Under the pieces are notes generated by a model, which was given only the letters and a program-made list of their open reading frames with translations, searched no databases and was not told the DNA's origin. Below are positions 1,390-13,437 of a stretch of DNA of 13,437 nucleotides, one piece after another. The position numbers and the translations under genes are program-made. This DNA comes from Chloroflexota bacterium (GTDB lineage: Bacteria > Chloroflexota > Ktedonobacteria > Ktedonobacterales > Ktedonobacteraceae). Positions within the stretch are counted from its first letter, which is position 1. Each line of letters starts with the position of its first letter. The stretch spans positions 1 through 13,437 of the forward strand of contig VBHV01000062.1 of NCBI GenBank assembly GCA_005881995.1, read 5' to 3'.

Positions 1390-1995
1390 TTACCATCCCC
1401 AGGGACCGCGACGACGGCGTCCTCCCCACATCGCTCTGCTAATCGCGCTGGCAAGTAGCAAGAGAATAAAAATCGGTACGAAAATGGCTCCGAATATGAA
1501 TCCCAAACCGCCGTGTTCCCCAAACAAAAACCAGTGACCGGGCATAAAAAGCCCTTGCAGCAAGGATATCATGATTAAAATAAACAGGATCGAGCCAAAG
1601 CGGAATGGTCTGCGCGCGTGCTCTTGCGGGCGCGCCCAGGGCGGTACACCCTGTCCAGAATTGTTTTGCTGCGTGCTATAGCCGCTATGGGGACGATAGC
1701 CCTGCTCGTAGGCATCGCCATCGTTGCTGTACGGATTATACTGATATGTAGGCGCTGGGTGCTGTCGTGCGGGTGTAGGGACCCGATTTATCGCGTCCTG
1801 GGCGCTCGCTTGTCCATCCTGTGCCTGGTACACCTGCTGCATTGGGATGTCATATTCATAGCTGGAGGGCGGCTCGTCTCTGGGTACTGCCTCCGAGTTG
1901 AGATTGCCGGACCAGGAATACGGATACTGCGGAGCGTATATTTCATCTTCGTTCTCAGACTGCTGTTGTCGTGGAACAAATTCTTGCTGGCTCAT
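1390..1995 (-). CDS. Pro/Gln/Tyr-rich protein with two C-terminal membrane segments, function unknown
   Basis: I do not recognise a family. The protein has 201 residues from ATG 1995, chosen because AAGGGAG lies 7 bases upstream; an in-frame ATG at 2025 has no such site. About the first 130 residues are low-complexity and rich in Pro, Gln, Tyr, Asn and Ser, and probably disordered. Two hydrophobic segments follow: about 20 residues from FGSILFILIM, then about 22 residues from LGFIFGAIFVP, separated by a short Gly/His loop. The protein ends in a basic GGRRRRGPWGW tail, so it is likely a small inner-membrane protein with a long soluble N-terminal region. Part of that region (QDAINRVPTP) is encoded by a copy of the family 2 palindromic repeat at 1775-1798. 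It is first in a minus-strand group with rsmA and the kinase. Confidence 0.75.
   Translation of the reverse strand: MSQQEFVPRQQQSENEDEIYAPQYPYSWSGNLNSEAVPRDEPPSSYEYDIPMQQVYQAQDGQASAQDAINRVPTPARQHPAPTYQYNPYSNDGDAYEQGYRPHSGYSTQQNNSGQGVPPWARPQEHARRPFRFGSILFILIMISLLQGLFMPGHWFLFGEHGGLGFIFGAIFVPIFILLLLASAISRAMWGGRRRRGPWGW
1775..1798. repeat. Family 2 palindromic repeat copy inside a coding sequence
   Basis: The plus strand reads GTAGGGACCCGAT followed by TTATCGCGTCC, an imperfect palindrome. It matches copies at 10055, 10910, 12202 and 12254. It lies fully within the membrane-protein gene and is translated as DAINRVPT, so it is an in-frame insertion or a co-opted copy. Confidence 0.8.
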
Positions 1996-2189
1996 TGTGG
2001 TCTCCCTTGCCCCGTTAAGGGGCATTGAAACAATGCATGTGAGGGATATACCCCTACTCTATAAGATACGAAACGCAGATACAAGAGTTGCAATACGGGC
2101 GAGATCAATCCAGGAACTTCCGCGCACCTGAAACGTGTAAGGGCTGCAAAGCGTTATAGTATAGTAATATTGACTTTATGCTTGATTGC

Positions 2190-2393: not shown

Positions 2394-2414
2394 GGCAGTC
2401 GGAATGAGAATCCA
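2394..2414 (+). repeat. Half copy of family 1 repeat in the PBP leader
   Basis: The segment starting GGCAGTCGGAATGAG and ending TCCA matches the right arm and tail of the three full copies inside the PBP coding region. No left arm is seen upstream. Confidence 0.65.
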
Positions 2415-2443
2415 GTGCTTTTCAAAGAATGGCAGGTGTCTTC

Positions 2444-4096
2444 ATGGATGAGTTGAACAATTCTAACGGTAATCACGACGATGACGAGGTTACGCAGCGA
2501 GTAATTCCTTCCCGACTGCCTGGGCCGCAGGCCAGGACGCAGTCCGTTGGCAGTCGGAATGAGGACCCAGTTCCTTCCCGACTGCCTGGGCCGCAGGCCA
2601 GGACGCAGTCCGTCCGGGAGCCTGGCAGTCGGAATGAGGACCCAGTTCCTTCCCGGCTGCCCAACAACCTGGAGTCGCAGGCCAGGACGCAGTCCGTTAG
2701 CAGTCGGAACGAGGATCCAACGCTGACGTGGAAGCAAAAAAAGGGTGACAGCGGCGCGGTGCATGTGATTGAACGCGAACACGAACCGAAACGGGGGAAG
2801 GACCTGGTTGACACAGGCAGCCGCGAAGCCACCCGCGGGCGTTCATCCAACCCATCTCTAATGGGGGTTGACGCACAAAACCAGGCGCTGCGCCGTGCTC
2901 GTATTAATCGCATCATGTTTATTAAGCGGCGGCAGTTGAGGCAGAGCCGCGTAGAAAAGGCGACTCCACGCTTGATGGTGGCTGTGGTGATTGCCTGCGC
3001 CGTGCTCTTTTCTCTGTTCACCGGGACACTGGGAGCCGCTTTTGCTTATTATGAAGCACAATTGCCGCTTTTGAATGGCATCGCCGACCACCAGATGTTC
3101 CAGACAACACATATTTATGATCGTAACGGGAAATTACTGGAGGCATTGTACGATCCGAAATATGGTCGCCGCACCTATGTGAATTATACTGATATCTCGT
3201 CCATGCTGGTGAATGCCACGGTCGCCACCGAAGACCGCACATTCTGGAACAATGGGGGCGTCGACTTCCAGGGTATTGTGCGCGCGGCTTTTACGAATTT
3301 TCAAAGCCAGACGGTGGTCGAGGGCGGCAGCACGATTACACAGCAGTTGATCAAGAACCAGTTTTTCCAGAATCAGCCCAGAACGGTGCAAATCAAGAGT
3401 GAGGAAGCGCTGCTGGCCTATGGTCTGACACAACAGTATCCCAAGTGGAAGATCATGGAGATGTACCTGAATACAGTCTACTACGGCGATTTGAATTATG
3501 GCATCGAGGCAGCCGCGCAGGACTATTTCAATCTCCAGCCCAAATGCACGCGCACGAAGTGTACCCCCGCGGCATCCCAGCTTGATCTTGCCCAGGCCTC
3601 GCTGTTGGCAGGACTTCCGCAGCTTCCTTCCTACTATAACCCGATCATGAACAGGGCGGCGGCGCTTGACCGGCAAATGTACGTGCTGCAGTCAATGGTG
3701 GAGATGAACTATATTACTCCTGCGCAGGCACAGCAGGCGGAGCGAGAGACGGCCACATTCAAGTTCCAATCGTTTAGATCACGACAGGGTATCCAGGCCA
3801 CGCACTTTGTGCAATATGTCATCGACAGCGTGCTGGTTCCCCTGATTGGCGCACAAAACCTGTATGATGGGGGGTACAACATCTATACCACGCTCGACTT
3901 GAATTTAGAGAAGAAAGTGGAGCAGATCGCCAATAGCCACCTCTACCAGGTGACGTGCGATAATTATCTCGGCTGTTATGGGCCGCTCAATACCCAGAAC
4001 AATGTCAATAATGCAGCGGTGCAACGATACCGGGCCATTGGTGCGCGGCAAGTTCAACGCGGCCACCTCACCCCGCCAGCCGGGTTCGTCGTTTAA
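2444..4096 (+). CDS. Class A penicillin-binding protein, 5' part (glycosyltransferase domain); frameshifted
   Basis: This is the N-terminal part of a bifunctional PBP that polymerises lipid II and crosslinks peptidoglycan outside the membrane. I chose ATG 2444 (MDELNNSNG, with GGCAGG 7 bases upstream); ATG 2429 is in frame with a weaker site. Numbering from 2429: 25-97 is three tandem repeat-encoded units (SRLPGPQARTQSV-like); 100-180 is a basic cytoplasmic region; about 183-208 is the membrane anchor; 265-311 is the GT51 core with ATEDRTFW (putative catalytic E268) and GGSTITQQLIKN; EMYLNTVYYGD is at about 344-354. The transpeptidase linker follows. The family match stops at NNAAV (4021). 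The last 25 or so codons to the TAA at 4094-4096 are out of frame. The matching frame resumes at 4023, so a stretch of conserved sequence is missing and the gene is broken as given. Confidence 0.9.
   Translation: MDELNNSNGNHDDDEVTQRVIPSRLPGPQARTQSVGSRNEDPVPSRLPGPQARTQSVREPGSRNEDPVPSRLPNNLESQARTQSVSSRNEDPTLTWKQKKGDSGAVHVIEREHEPKRGKDLVDTGSREATRGRSSNPSLMGVDAQNQALRRARINRIMFIKRRQLRQSRVEKATPRLMVAVVIACAVLFSLFTGTLGAAFAYYEAQLPLLNGIADHQMFQTTHIYDRNGKLLEALYDPKYGRRTYVNYTDISSMLVNATVATEDRTFWNNGGVDFQGIVRAAFTNFQSQTVVEGGSTITQQLIKNQFFQNQPRTVQIKSEEALLAYGLTQQYPKWKIMEMYLNTVYYGDLNYGIEAAAQDYFNLQPKCTRTKCTPAASQLDLAQASLLAGLPQLPSYYNPIMNRAAALDRQMYVLQSMVEMNYITPAQAQQAERETATFKFQSFRSRQGIQATHFVQYVIDSVLVPLIGAQNLYDGGYNIYTTLDLNLEKKVEQIANSHLYQVTCDNYLGCYGPLNTQNNVNNAAVQRYRAIGARQVQRGHLTPPAGFVV
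2509..2569 (+). repeat. Family 1 palindromic repeat, in-frame coding copy 1
   Basis: The left arm CCCGACTGCC pairs with the right arm GGCAGTCGG around a GC-rich centre, followed by AATGAGGACCCA. It encodes SRLPGPQARTQSVGSRNEDP. The reverse complement matches the intergenic copy at 10854 through AACG, GCGT, CTGCG and CCAGGCAGT. Confidence 0.85.
2575..2644 (+). repeat. Family 1 palindromic repeat, in-frame coding copy 2
   Basis: This has the same arms and tail as copy 1, with a few extra codons (REPG) before the right arm. It starts 66 bases after copy 1, a multiple of three, so the frame is kept. Confidence 0.85.
2650..2719 (+). repeat. Family 1 palindromic repeat, in-frame coding copy 3
   Basis: This is a diverged copy with left arm CCCGGCTGCC and right arm beginning AGCAGTCGG, encoding SRLPNNLESQARTQSV. 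It starts 75 bases after copy 2, again a multiple of three. The CCCAACAACC stretch after the left arm is shared with the intergenic copy at 11343. Confidence 0.8.
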
Positions 4097-7506: not shown

Positions 7507-7586
7507 GAGAGGCGACCGCTCGGCTCCTTTCGTTCTGCCAACGCTGCTGCGCGTCAAGCAGGACGAAAGGAGAAAGGTCACCTCCC
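7507..7586 (-). repeat. Diverged family 1 palindrome between pnp and the UDG gene
   Basis: CTCCTTTCGTTCTGC (7524-7538) pairs with GCAGGACGAAAGGAG (7558-7572) with one wobble. The outer arms GAGGCGACC (7509-7517) and GGTCACCTC (7576-7584) pair with one mismatch. The centre CAACG..CTGCTGCGCGTCA resembles the family 1 core. It could act as a hairpin at the 3' end of the pnp transcript. The rest of the gap is unremarkable. Confidence 0.65.
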
Positions 7587-7609: not shown

Positions 7610-9838
7610 TTACCAGCGGCGCTCTGGGGGACGCTGACCAAAGCCGCTATCACGGCGCGGGCCACCAGGACCGCCAGGGCCGCCAGGACCACGACCAGGG
7701 TTGTTGGAGCCAGGGCCCATTGGACGGCGCTGGCCACCAAAACCACCGCCGCTGCCACCACGATCTCCATAGCCACCACCGCCGGGGCGACCTCCGCGAT
7801 CTCCATAGCCACCGCGGTCTCCGTAGCCACCGCCGGAGCGATCACGATCTCCGTAACCGCCAGGGCCACGATTGGGCATTGAACCTTCACGTGGAGGACG
7901 ATTGCCATAGCCGCCGGGACGTCCCATGCCGCCGCGACCAGGGCCACCATATCCGCCACGTCCGCCGCGTTCGCTGTCCAACTCGGCGGCACTGGGCATT
8001 TCGCCGCTCAAGGCAGCGCGGCGTGAGAGATTGATGCGTCCCTGCTGATCGACTTCGACCACCATGACGGTGATTTCGTCGCCGACCGAGACCACGTCTT
8101 CGGGGCGATTCACCTGGTAGTCGGCCAGCTGCGAGGTACGCACGAGGCCTTCTTTACCGGGCAGGATTTCCACGAATGCGCCGAAATCGACGAGGCGGCG
8201 CACAGTGCCGGTATAGATGCGGCCAACCTCTACTTCTTCGGTTAAGGCGCGCACGGCATCCATAGCATGCTGCATGGCATCGCCGGAGGTAGCGGAGATG
8301 TTGACGGAGCCATCATCCTCGATATCGATCTTCGCGCCGCTCTCCTCCTGAATCTTGCGGATCATCTTTCCGCCTGGGCCGATGACGGCGCCGATCTTTT
8401 CAGGGTTAATTTTGATGGTCTGGATACGCGGGGCGTAATCCGACAATTCTTCGCGGGGGGCGTCGATGGTGTCGAGCATTTTTTCCATGATGAACATGCG
8501 GCCTTCGCGCGCCTGCTCTAAGGCCCTGGACATGATCTCGTAGGTGATGCCTTTGACTTTGATGTCCATTTGCAGGGCGGTCACGCCATCAGCCGTTCCA
8601 GCGACTTTGAAGTCCATGTCACCCAGGGCGTCTTCGATGCCCTGAATGTCGGACATCACGGCCCATTTGCCCGCGCGCTCACCTTCACCGGTGATGAGGC
8701 CCATGGCTACGCCCGCGACAGGAGCGTGGATGGGCACACCGGCATCCATTAAGGAGAGGGTGGTGCCGCACACGGAACCCATCGAGGTCGAGCCGTTTGA
8801 CGAGAGCACGTCGGAGACGGCGCGGATGGTATACGGGAATTCTGCCTGCGTGGGGATGACCGCCGCGACTGCGCGTTCTGCGAGCGCGCCATGGCCGATC
8901 TCACGTCGTCCCGGGCCGCGTAAGGGCTTACTCTCACCGGTCGAGAACGGTGGGAAGTTGTAGTGGTGCATAAAGCGCTTGCTTTCGCCGGAACCCAGGC
9001 CGTCGAGGATCTGCTCCTCGCCAGGAGAGCCAAGCGTAATGACGCTGAGTACCTGGGTCTGCCCGCGGGTGAAGATGGCGGAGCCATGTGTGCGCGGCAG
9101 CAGCCCTACCTCGCAACTAACGGGGCGAATGGTCTTGAGGTCGCGTCCATCGGGACGAACGCCGTTGTCCAGGATGTTGTTGCGCACATATGCTTTCAGC
9201 TCTTTTTCGTAGAAGGAGATGATGTCCTTCAAACGATCCGGATACTCTGCGCCGAGCGCGGCGATCAGTTCGCCCTGCACTGCATTGAGCGCAGCTGAAC
9301 GGATGGCCTTGTTGGGATTATTGACCGCCGCTTCAAAACGCGGCAGCACAAAAGCGGCGACTTTGCTGCGCAGGTCCTGGTCAACCGCCGGGGCCTCAAA
9401 GGGTCGCTTGGCGATATTGACAGCCTGCGTCAGTTTTTCTTGCATTTTGATGATATCTTGCAAGGCTTCCTGGCCGAAGCGCACGGCTTCGAGCATCATC
9501 TCTTCAGGAAGTTCTTTCGCGCCAGCCTCAACCATCATGACGGCATCTGAGGTGCCTGCTATGGCAAGATCAAGGCGCGAGTTGGGCATCTGCGACTCAA
9601 ACGGATTGATCACCAGCTGATCATCGATATAGCCGACGCGCACGGCGCCGACCGGTCCGGCGAAAGGAATATCGGAGACGGAGAGAGCCGCCGATGCCCC
9701 TACGATGCCCATGATGTCGGAATCGTTTTCCTGGTCAGCCGAGAGCACGGTGATGACGATCTGTACATCGTTACGATACCCTTTGGGGAACAGTGGACGA
9801 AGAGGGCGATCAGCAAGGCGGCAGGCAAGGATGGCATG
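7610..9838 (-). CDS. pnp: Polynucleotide phosphorylase, 3' part (PH domain 1 remainder, PH2, KH, S1, RGG tail); frameshifted
   Basis: PNPase degrades RNA 3'-5' with phosphate, as a trimer in the cytosol. The matching frame starts at 9838 with [20 protein letters not shown]; a GTG at 9748 could only start a shortened protein. Numbering from 9748: the rest of PH domain 1 and the helical linker to about 185; PH domain 2 (about 190-430) with phosphate-binding [11 protein letters not shown] (317-327) and metal-binding D373/D379 (DALGDMDFK); KH (about 441-500) with GPGG (457-460); S1 (about 508-578) with VDFGAFVEI. Residues 594-712 form a Gly/Arg-rich tail of about 119 residues with repeated GGYGDRGG units, unlike the short ends of most PNPases. 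The conserved PH1 segment before HAILACRL is absent and the upstream part is in another frame, so the gene is broken as given. Confidence 0.93.
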
Positions 9839-10054: not shown

Positions 10055-10080
10055 GGACACGATAAATCGGGTCCCTACAC
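10055..10080. repeat. Family 2 palindromic repeat before the pnp ribosome site
   Basis: GGACACGATAAATCGGGTCC followed by CTACAC is an imperfect palindrome. On the pnp strand it starts GTGTAGGGACCCGAT, the same variant as the copy inside the membrane-protein gene. It ends about 5 bases before GGAGG of pnp, so a hairpin here could affect pnp translation. Confidence 0.75.
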
Positions 10081-10845: not shown

Positions 10846-10853
10846 TTCTCTTC

Positions 10854-10904
10854 TTCCGACTGCCAACGAACGGCGTTCTACGCTGCGCGCCAGGCAGTAT
10901 TCCC
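10854..10904 (-). repeat. Family 1 palindromic repeat between rplL and rpsO
   Basis: TTCCGACTGCC and GGCAGTATTCC flank the core AACGAACGGCGTTCTACG and CTGCGCGCCA. The right arm has lost the CGG, so the stem is shorter than in other copies. It lies next to the family 2 copy at 10910. Confidence 0.85.
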
Positions 10905-10909
10905 TTTGT

Positions 10910-10933
10910 GGACGCGATTTATCGCGTCCCTAC
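10910..10933. repeat. Family 2 palindromic repeat at the rplL stop codon
   Basis: GGACGCGAT-TT-ATCGCGTCC followed by CTAC is a near-perfect 9-bp palindrome. On the rplL strand it reads GTAGGGACGCGAT, and the TAG of that motif is the rplL stop codon. It may also serve as the transcript-end hairpin. Confidence 0.8.
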
Positions 10934-11313: not shown

Positions 11314-11342
11314 GGTTTTCCTTTCTCCTTCATGGGTCCTTA

Positions 11343-11402
11343 TTCCGACTGCCCAACAACCAGACGAACTGCATTCTACGCTGCGCGTCAGGCAGTCGGA
11401 AA
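11343..11402 (-). repeat. Family 1 palindromic repeat between rplJ and rplL
   Basis: Full arms TTCCGACTGCC and GGCAGTCGGAA (11 bp, perfect) flank a core with CAACAACCAGACGAAC and ACGCTGCGCGTCA. It lies 8 bases after the rplJ stop. On the mRNA it would form a strong hairpin between rplJ and rplL, possibly setting the L10:L12 output ratio or a processing site. Confidence 0.88.
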
Positions 11403-11410
11403 GGTATTAA

Positions 11411-12201: not shown

Positions 12202-12278
12202 TTGTAGGGACGCGATTTATCGCGTCCAGGCCCTGGTTCAAGATGTGCCTAGTGGACGCGATTATCGCGTCCCTACAA
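12202..12278. repeat. Inverted pair of family 2 palindromes (MITE-like composite)
   Basis: TTGTAGGGACGCGAT..ATCGCGTCC (12202-12227) and GGACGCGAT-TATCGCGTCC with CCTACAA (ending 12278) are two palindromes in opposite orientation, 26 bases apart. The outer ends TTGTAGGGACGCGAT and ATCGCGTCCCTACAA form terminal inverted repeats of a 77-bp unit, lying 18 bases after the rplA stop. Confidence 0.75.
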
Positions 12279-13004: not shown

Positions 13005-13064
13005 ACTATTTGTTTTCGCCCTCCTTGTGGCAATATAACCGCAGTGACTTGCGGGCAATCTTAC

Positions 13065-13112
13065 TTCCGACTGTCAACGAACGGCGTTCTACGCTGCGCG
13101 TCAGACAGTCGG
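13065..13112 (-). repeat. Family 1 palindromic repeat between rplK and rplA
   Basis: TTCCGACTGTC and GACAGTCGG flank a core with AACGAACGGCGTTC and ACGCTGCGCGTCA. Both arms differ from other copies at the paired position (GCC/GGC becomes GTC/GAC), a compensatory change that keeps the stem. It begins directly after the rplK stop codon. Confidence 0.88.
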
Positions 13113-13437
13113 CTAGGAATTTACTAACGTGATCCCCATACTGCGGGCTGTTCCTTCGACCATGCTCTCAGCGCCTTCAATATCGATCACGTTGAGGTCT
13201 TTCATCTTGAGTTCAGCGATCTCGCGCAGCTTGGCACGGTTAATCGAGCCAACCTTGGTCTTATTGGGGATCGCCGACCCCTTTTCCACTCCGGCAGCCT
13301 TCTTCAACAGATCGGTTACGGGTGGAGTTTTGGTAATAAATGTGAACGAACGATCTTCATAGATCGTAATTTCAGCCGGGATTACCATCCCTACCTGACC
13401 CGCGGTACGCTCGTTGTACTCCTTACAGAACGCCATA
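13113..13437 (-). CDS. rplK: 50S ribosomal protein L11 (5' part outside window)
   Basis: L11 binds the GTPase-associated region of 23S rRNA. About the last 107 residues are present; the usual length is about 141, so some 35 N-terminal residues lie beyond the edge. The Met at 13436 is the internal Met of the [11 protein letters not shown] motif and not the start. Further signatures are [60 protein letters not shown] and [10 protein letters not shown]. The end is LVNS followed by TAG, with the family 1 repeat starting on the next base. It is the first gene of the rplK-rplA-rplJ-rplL run. Confidence 0.96.

Follow-up and report, generated by a model that had tools for sequence, protein, structure and literature searches.

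In-frame copies of a palindromic repeat in a PBP gene belong to a probably mobile element family of Ktedonobacteria

The DNA analyzed here, a stretch of 13,437 nucleotides from a bacterium of the family Ktedonobacteraceae (hereafter the window), carries genes for an rRNA adenine dimethylase, a PBP in two reading frames, a UDG-family protein and PNPase, together with rpsO, rplL, rplJ, rplA, and rplK. Copies of a short palindromic element lie both within the PBP gene and in the spacers between other genes. These copies were scored with two covariance models of length 62–65. The first, R1, was built from 11 copies and at most 114 candidates were scored with it per genome; the second, R2, was built from 81 matches and applied to 400 genomes of the phylum with at most 13 candidates scored per genome, and the counts are lower bounds. 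The PBP gene parts and element copies in the window are as follows.

2394..2414, + strand: right half of an element copy upstream of the PBP start codon, found by repeat search
2429..4096, + strand: PBP ORF 1 with the transglycosylase domain (PF00912, 3.7e-55; homologues), in a gene interrupted downstream
2504..2565, + strand: element copy 1, predicted translation PSRLPGPQARTQSVGSRNEDP, 66-nt unit 2505-2570, frame open; R1 88.8 bits and R2 74.9 bits, this copy being in the training set of both models
2570..2640, + strand: element copy 2, predicted translation PSRLPGPQARTQSVREPGSRNEDP, 75-nt unit 2571-2645; R1 78.6 bits, R2 61.1 bits
2645..2715, + strand: element copy 3, arms decayed, predicted translation PSRLPNNLESQARTQSVSSRNEDP, 75-nt unit 2646-2720; R1 62.0 bits, R2 41.5 bits
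3978..5270, + strand: transpeptidase part of the PBP in a different frame (PF00905, 2.4e-13)
7525..7573, - strand: decayed copy between the UDG-family gene and PNPase; R1 21 bits, E 0.0048 (7523-7573); R2 28.1 bits, E 3.9e-5, with this copy in the R2 training set
10848..10900, - strand: intergenic copy with truncated left arm in the rplL-rpsO gap, R1 51.4 bits (neighbors by Pfam)
11337..11407, - strand: intergenic copy in the rplJ-rplL gap, R1 73.4 bits (neighbors by Pfam)
13059..13120, - strand: intergenic copy in the rplK-rplA gap, R1 80.0 bits (neighbors by Pfam)

The PBP of the window is of class A and is broken, with its transglycosylase and transpeptidase domains in two frames (interruption at 3978-4096), whereas in its relatives P0003 (915 residues) and P0006 (861 residues) a single ORF encodes the protein. 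The real start is likely the ATG at 2443, because relatives begin with MDE. A sequence-only reading of this DNA had described three tandem palindromic copies inside the gene. This was borne out: three tandem units of 66, 75, and 75 nt occupy positions 2505-2720 in frame in the ORF 2429-4096 (+) and share the reading frame PSRLP..QARTQSV..SRNEDP. The start-to-start distances of 66 and 75 nt given in that reading were measured at the same values, and the half copy that it placed before the start codon corresponds to the right half at 2394-2414. Other parts of the description held with adjustment. The translated block exists and is 72 residues long rather than 70; the arms are like those of the ribosomal spacers in copies 1 and 2, whereas those of the third copy are decayed (CCGGCTGCC/AGCAGTCGG); and the repeated unit, while palindromic, exceeds the palindrome and takes in a tail, AATGAGGACCCAG. 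The N-terminal region that holds the units precedes a long predicted helix and the transglycosylase domain, and an AlphaFold model of the N-terminal ORF was too poor for use (mean pLDDT 42). Translation of the three copies is predicted from the open frame, and as the gene is broken they may not form part of a working enzyme.

Repeat arms had also been reported in the gaps of the ribosomal operon, and two complete copies and one truncated copy were confirmed in spacers between ribosomal genes. Arm pairs of the form CCGRCTGYC-N17..47-GDCAGTCGG occur four times per strand in the window and in none of 300 dinucleotide-preserving shuffles, which were counted on one strand. Further repeats are present in the window. 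A second palindrome, GTAGGGACGCGATTTATCGCGTCC, which starts with GTAG as do many REPs, is found at four places (1774-1801, 10055-10075, 10909-10930, and 12207-12228), with six matches over both strands against none in 200 shuffles. Its copy at 1774 lies inside an ORF at 1390-2025 (-) that has no Pfam match, and may also be translated. A short repeat pair, TGCTACCAGGGCAGGG, is located at 2187-2236 upstream of the PBP gene, in an intergenic region shared by several repeats, and a GGCCACC-type tandem repeat at 7732-7963 lies near the 3′ end of the PNPase gene.

The element is a three-way junction of roughly 62–75 nt, in which an outer stem of 9 bp encloses two small hairpins, and can be folded as single-stranded DNA or RNA. 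Its unpaired TG, A, and GTT are nearly invariant across copies, while 16 of its 19 pairs have changed on both sides. Over 81 aligned matches (79 distinct), 98.8% of 1374 cells are paired, compared with 74.9% in shuffles and 24–51% in slid controls of the structure; fitting the alignment to a related structure favors this result, although the controls are still far lower. The covariation score is 0.548 against 0.141 for shuffled alignments, a value reached in 0 of 500 shuffles, and slid partners give at most 0.060. DNA folding z-scores range from −2.9 to −4.7 for copies 1 and 2 and the two complete spacer copies, but copy 3 scores only −1.2. No Rfam match at or above the curated gathering score was found in the window or in 10 loci.

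Matches to R1 at E ≤0.1 were obtained in 17 of 47 genomes of the class, a set that includes genomes of the Ktedonobacter, Dictyobacter, and Thermogemmatispora loci. The best E value is 5.8e-4 or lower in 15 of these genomes, and matches near E 0.1 in the other two (G004 and G044) were treated as chance. The repeat is abundant in related genomes: at least 100 R1 matches were counted in G030, 32 in G040, 21 in G035, 17 in G007, and 16 in G008. In the 400-genome sample of the phylum, R2 matched 17 genomes, all already among those of the class search, and no genome outside the class of the element, Ktedonobacteria, yielded a match. Searches of viral and plasmid collections gave no match. The initial pattern, CCGACTGCC..GGCAGTCGG, had no match in 11 genomes and was found in 2 of 47 genomes of the order; it is nearly matchless because the arms vary by subfamily, and the breadth of the family is visible only with the covariance model. 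The coding subtype was not found by pattern in any of the 47 class genomes, in which the coding peptide gave 12 weak matches in 11 genomes (best E 0.11) that were taken as chance. Therefore, its host lineage is probably not among these genomes.

Relatives of the PBP differ in how many units they carry at the same site. Among the 120 PBP homologues listed of 6486 matches, the block is absent except in P0003, P0004, and P0005. Of the two outcomes that the sequence-only reading had named as refuting it, neither was obtained, with the abundance of the repeat measured in related genomes, and its interpretation is supported. The site holds no copy in P0006, one in P0003, two in P0004, two in P0005, and three in the window; P0003 is a cluster of 20 member sequences at 90% identity, with the copy number read from P0003 itself. 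At the unoccupied site of P0006 (82% identical) the tail reads IQQIVP-LWKLTKGD, versus VTQRVIP-(25 residues)-TWKQKKGD in P0003. The nearest named PBP relatives of the window are Ktedonobacteria, and two further homologues, P0015 and P0109, have a lone SRLP each. An Arg-Glu-Pro triplet of the second unit in the window recurs in the second unit of P0004, the pattern expected from unequal exchange between copies. Since tandem-repeat copy number is easily mis-assembled and the PBP gene has a frame break, an assembly or sequencing artefact has to be considered. However, separate clusters (P0003, P0004, and P0005) carry one or two copies, and we judge an artefact to be very improbable as the source of the block, although the number of copies counted in the window may yet be incorrect.

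Protein searches placed the peptide RLP..PQARTQSVGSRN.DP inside eight protein types besides the PBP:

P0123: no Pfam family
P0124: GAF histidine kinase, three units
P0125, P0127, and P0129: GltD-like oxidoreductase
P0126 and P0130: membrane protein
P0128 and P0133: HutF
P0131: NTP_transf_5
P0132: PurQ, 188 aa
P0134: aldose epimerase

The query of the first search was residues 24-104 by themselves and that of the second the corresponding piece of P0126, with 10 and 9 rows, respectively, at E ≤10; the carriers outside the window are known here from their protein sequences alone. Of seven non-PBP rows in the first search, P0123 has an E value of 1.2e-10 and the rest lie between 0.016 and 1.5, so that in this search it is the aligned peptide that supports the match. 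In the second search, the carriers besides the query have E values of 1e-16 to 7e-6. The sole row without a unit, P0135 (E 5.2), is a close relative of P0126 and has VGTRFIAST three times at the corresponding place, whereas in P0126 the unit splits that motif (VGTRFI-unit-AST). VGTRFIAS is the + strand reading of the second palindrome of the window. In PurQ (P0132), ASLTNNA is present three times in tandem directly after the two nested palindromes of that protein.

The N-terminal tails of PBPs differ in length and sequence among Ktedonobacteria, as might be expected if the block were no more than a tandem repeat of the protein or an extension particular to the lineage, with the palindrome incidental. 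This reading is contradicted by like DNA with an equal fold in the non-coding spacers of the window, and the identical type of peptide is present in unrelated proteins; we regard it as scarcely credible.

Orthologues of several carriers were then compared at the place of the insert. Those of the aldose epimerase are found in 25 of the 47 class genomes, and in each of them the alignment covers both flanks of the insert but the block is missing; in 12 aligned orthologues exactly 25 residues are missing (NRGDEA-MPIAPGFHPYF). For the GltD-like protein, with orthologues in 20 of 47 genomes, 12 of 12 aligned sequences are without the block and 22 residues are missing. HutF orthologues are present in 27 of 47 genomes and are likewise without the block in 12 of 12 alignments, though the flanks are variable there. 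The AlphaFold model of P0134 (mean pLDDT 70.7, 13 sequences) has a predicted fold that matches mutarotase structures. Its insert, residues 146-171, has a pLDDT below 50 and is the stretch of lowest confidence, but residues 47-52, 60-85, and 270-276 also fall below 50, so this is soft evidence. Alignments to PDB structures did not cover the insert region of HutF, and for PurQ and the epimerase they give only a hint of an empty site, as what aligns beyond the insert falls short of significance on its own. Taken together, these comparisons show the element in several unrelated proteins that have uninterrupted relatives, and such blocks may be misread as domains. A target duplication ‘MP’ at the epimerase and GltD-like inserts was considered and rejected, because units that lie inside other palindromes start with MP as well, so that the MP at these inserts may belong to the element itself.

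An empty site at the DNA level was found in a hydantoinase B gene. The gene of G002 contains the element antisense to its reading direction, and the orthologue in G001 is without it, with flanks 94.3% and 95.7% identical. A single base pair of the empty allele is replaced by 67 bp in the filled one, so the net insert is 66 bp, and no target duplication is visible at this one site. The peptide encoded by the element there, APIRPANDASASSFAQAGRKE, is unrelated to the peptide of the window, which argues against a function of the peptide.

We also examined where copies lie in related genomes. Outside the window 117 copies were considered, 70 from R1 and 47 further ones from R2. The 74 R1 matches were reduced to 70 by dropping L219 minus and L167 plus (duplicates of matches on the other strand) and two odd L195 rows, and the 68 R2 matches to 47 by dropping 19 already counted and two L268 rows that represent the same place as L219. 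An ORF that is 120 aa or longer and leaves a margin of 20 aa on either side covers 34 of the 117, and 9 of 16 covering ORFs scanned against Pfam had no match. One copy lies within a Pfam match, that to Hydantoinase_B in G002. In G005, a TnpB gene (L255:621-2096; OrfB_IS605, Cas12f1-like TNB) contains two in-frame element matches antisense to the gene, one between its two Pfam matches and one ahead of the first. In the GDE_N_bis, PNPOx, Dak1, and DAHP_snth_FXD ORFs the element is found only before the domain, and the real start may be further in; an HTH_36 match (L276) fell below the cut-off. Copies within or between Pfam-matched gene parts thus number 2 of 117, or 3 if the other copy in the TnpB gene is included, and outside the window coding insertion is an exception, rare but real.

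These antisense copies bear on whether the peptide could be a short linear module that spread by copying to many proteins and is under selection as protein sequence. Near-identical peptides in a single frame are indeed seen in the carriers found, but the search peptide fixes the frame, so that only this frame could be found and a constant frame cannot be concluded. In addition, the G002 hydantoinase B reads the other strand of the element as an unrelated peptide, the TnpB gene of G005 also has the element in antisense, and orthologues manage without the block. Selection for the peptide is accordingly a most unlikely explanation.

The majority of the copies examined lie outside recognized genes, and some are tandem or nested. 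Excising a copy and joining its flanks restores the signature of another copy in 11 of 70 cases, compared with 49 of 17147 random positions. All 11 nested copies have the same orientation and are mostly found in the second hairpin; two cases with long or odd inner parts, L222 and L175 (at 971), are less certain, giving a nested total of 9–11 of 70. Because copies nest in this way and units also lie inside the second palindrome, hairpin loops are suggested to be favored, or safe, landing places. Many copies in G030 (L166-L204) directly follow a conserved GTAGGGCC..CCCTTG.GGG stretch that resembles another composite repeat.

The element could instead be kept for a function of its RNA or DNA fold, for example as a cis-acting RNA in ribosomal and other transcripts, with the coding copies as by-catch or as carriers of that function into mRNA. 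Compensatory change that conserves the fold far above controls, the almost invariant unpaired nucleotides, and the three window copies in ribosomal-gene spacers are all in line with such a role. Against it, some class genomes have no match and one has at least 100, presence and copy number differ at single sites, many copies are nested or tandem, and transposition machinery that reads the fold would yield equal covariation. We therefore think a fold function unlikely, if less so than the protein-level and artefact explanations.

The explanation we favor, and hold to be highly probable, is that the repeat is a family of small, non-autonomous, mobile palindromic elements of Ktedonobacteria, which are soil bacteria, and that it is tolerated by proteins. 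We infer mobility from sites that are seen empty in some sequences and filled in others. Insertions of 66 or 75 nt would preserve the frame and, where they reach a flexible tail or loop, would be tolerated, with selection purging only those that are harmful; unequal recombination or slippage between units could subsequently produce the tandem copies. No function of the peptide would be needed. The weakest step of this scheme is the movement itself, in which an enzyme recognizing the folded single strand would move the element without target duplication, with a preference for hairpin loops including those of other palindromes. A mechanism that acts on single strands, as in the IS200/IS605/REP type, would account for both the recognition of the fold and the missing duplications. 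Counts of Y1 transposases (PF01797, 1e-5) do not track element number among the class genomes compared: G007 has none with 17 R1 matches, G039 has none with 0 R1 but 11 R2 matches, G036 has 18 with no R1 match, and G040 has 40 with 32 R1 matches. A more specific proposal is that the element is structure-recognized mobile DNA, a three-way-junction strand that is moved without target duplication by an enzyme other than a REP transposase, prefers the hairpin loops of its own and other palindromes, and is a recurrent source of in-frame protein segments in free-living bacteria. We offer this only tentatively, as possible but on balance doubtful.

Palindromes that code for protein have been discussed for Rickettsia, Wolbachia, Methanocaldococcus jannaschii, and some REP-rich genomes (PMC2229807, PMC2996958, PMC6649704, PMC3733652). 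The RPEs of Rickettsia are in-frame inserts of 105–146 bp, and in guanylate kinase activity is altered but retained (PMC2229807). The sequence-only reading had likened the present repeat to RPEs. In behavior the likeness holds, as both are stem-loop repeats found between genes and in frame in unrelated conserved proteins, where they are tolerated rather than helpful (PMC2229807). In size it does not, since the element spans 62–75 nt (66/75-nt units, 66-bp net insert). The element is further set against RPEs, by description, in its three-way-junction fold, its Chloroflexota host, its series of 0–3 copies at one site, and its nested copies. The coding palindromes reported from Wolbachia and M. 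jannaschii are likewise in-frame inserts outside Rickettsia (PMC2996958). PARCELs also are palindromic DNA encoding protein repeats in tandem, but they are described for repeat proteins with surface phenotypes, whereas the element interrupts unrelated enzymes with one to three units (PMC2996958).

REPs tagged with GTAG/GTGG or CGTC resemble the element as high-copy small palindromes that form clusters and are occasionally inserted in frame into genes (PMC3733652, PMC6006769); the first of these papers reports intragenic REPs, GTAG repeats in Chloroflexi, and a CGTC tag at one end of CGTC REPs (PMC3733652). By the definition given in the second, a REP has GTAG/GTGG 0–2 nt 5′ of the stem, a basal stem of 7–20 paired nt, and a loop of 2–5 nt or one further stem (PMC6006769). 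The 9-bp basal stem of the element is within this range, but its interior consists of two hairpins. A GTAG/GTGG tag adjoins the stem in 1 of 123 copies on either strand, a set that omits the decayed copy at 7525, and in 1 of 132 matches. A rough test for CGTC in the terminal 12 nt of either strand found it in 4 of 132 matches.

MITEs are short, non-autonomous sequences with inverted repeats that insert into genes. The element shares each of these features, but its one DNA-level empty site has no target duplication. Thus, set apart by these descriptions, it is a translated palindromic repeat that behaves like RPEs but is missing the size of RPEs and the tags of REPs. The suggestion that it is perhaps undescribed in this lineage agrees with our searches, in which neither Rfam nor the literature yielded a described element of Ktedonobacteria; no coding palindrome of Ktedonobacteria was found in a literature covered in part, with subscription papers mostly missing, and absence in print is not proven.

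The element adds a family of RNA or DNA structures without an Rfam match, which should aid annotation and prevent such blocks from being read as domains. With its covarying fold, its empty sites, and alleles of zero, one, two, and three copies at one gene, it provides a system for watching and testing the birth of protein segments from mobile DNA.
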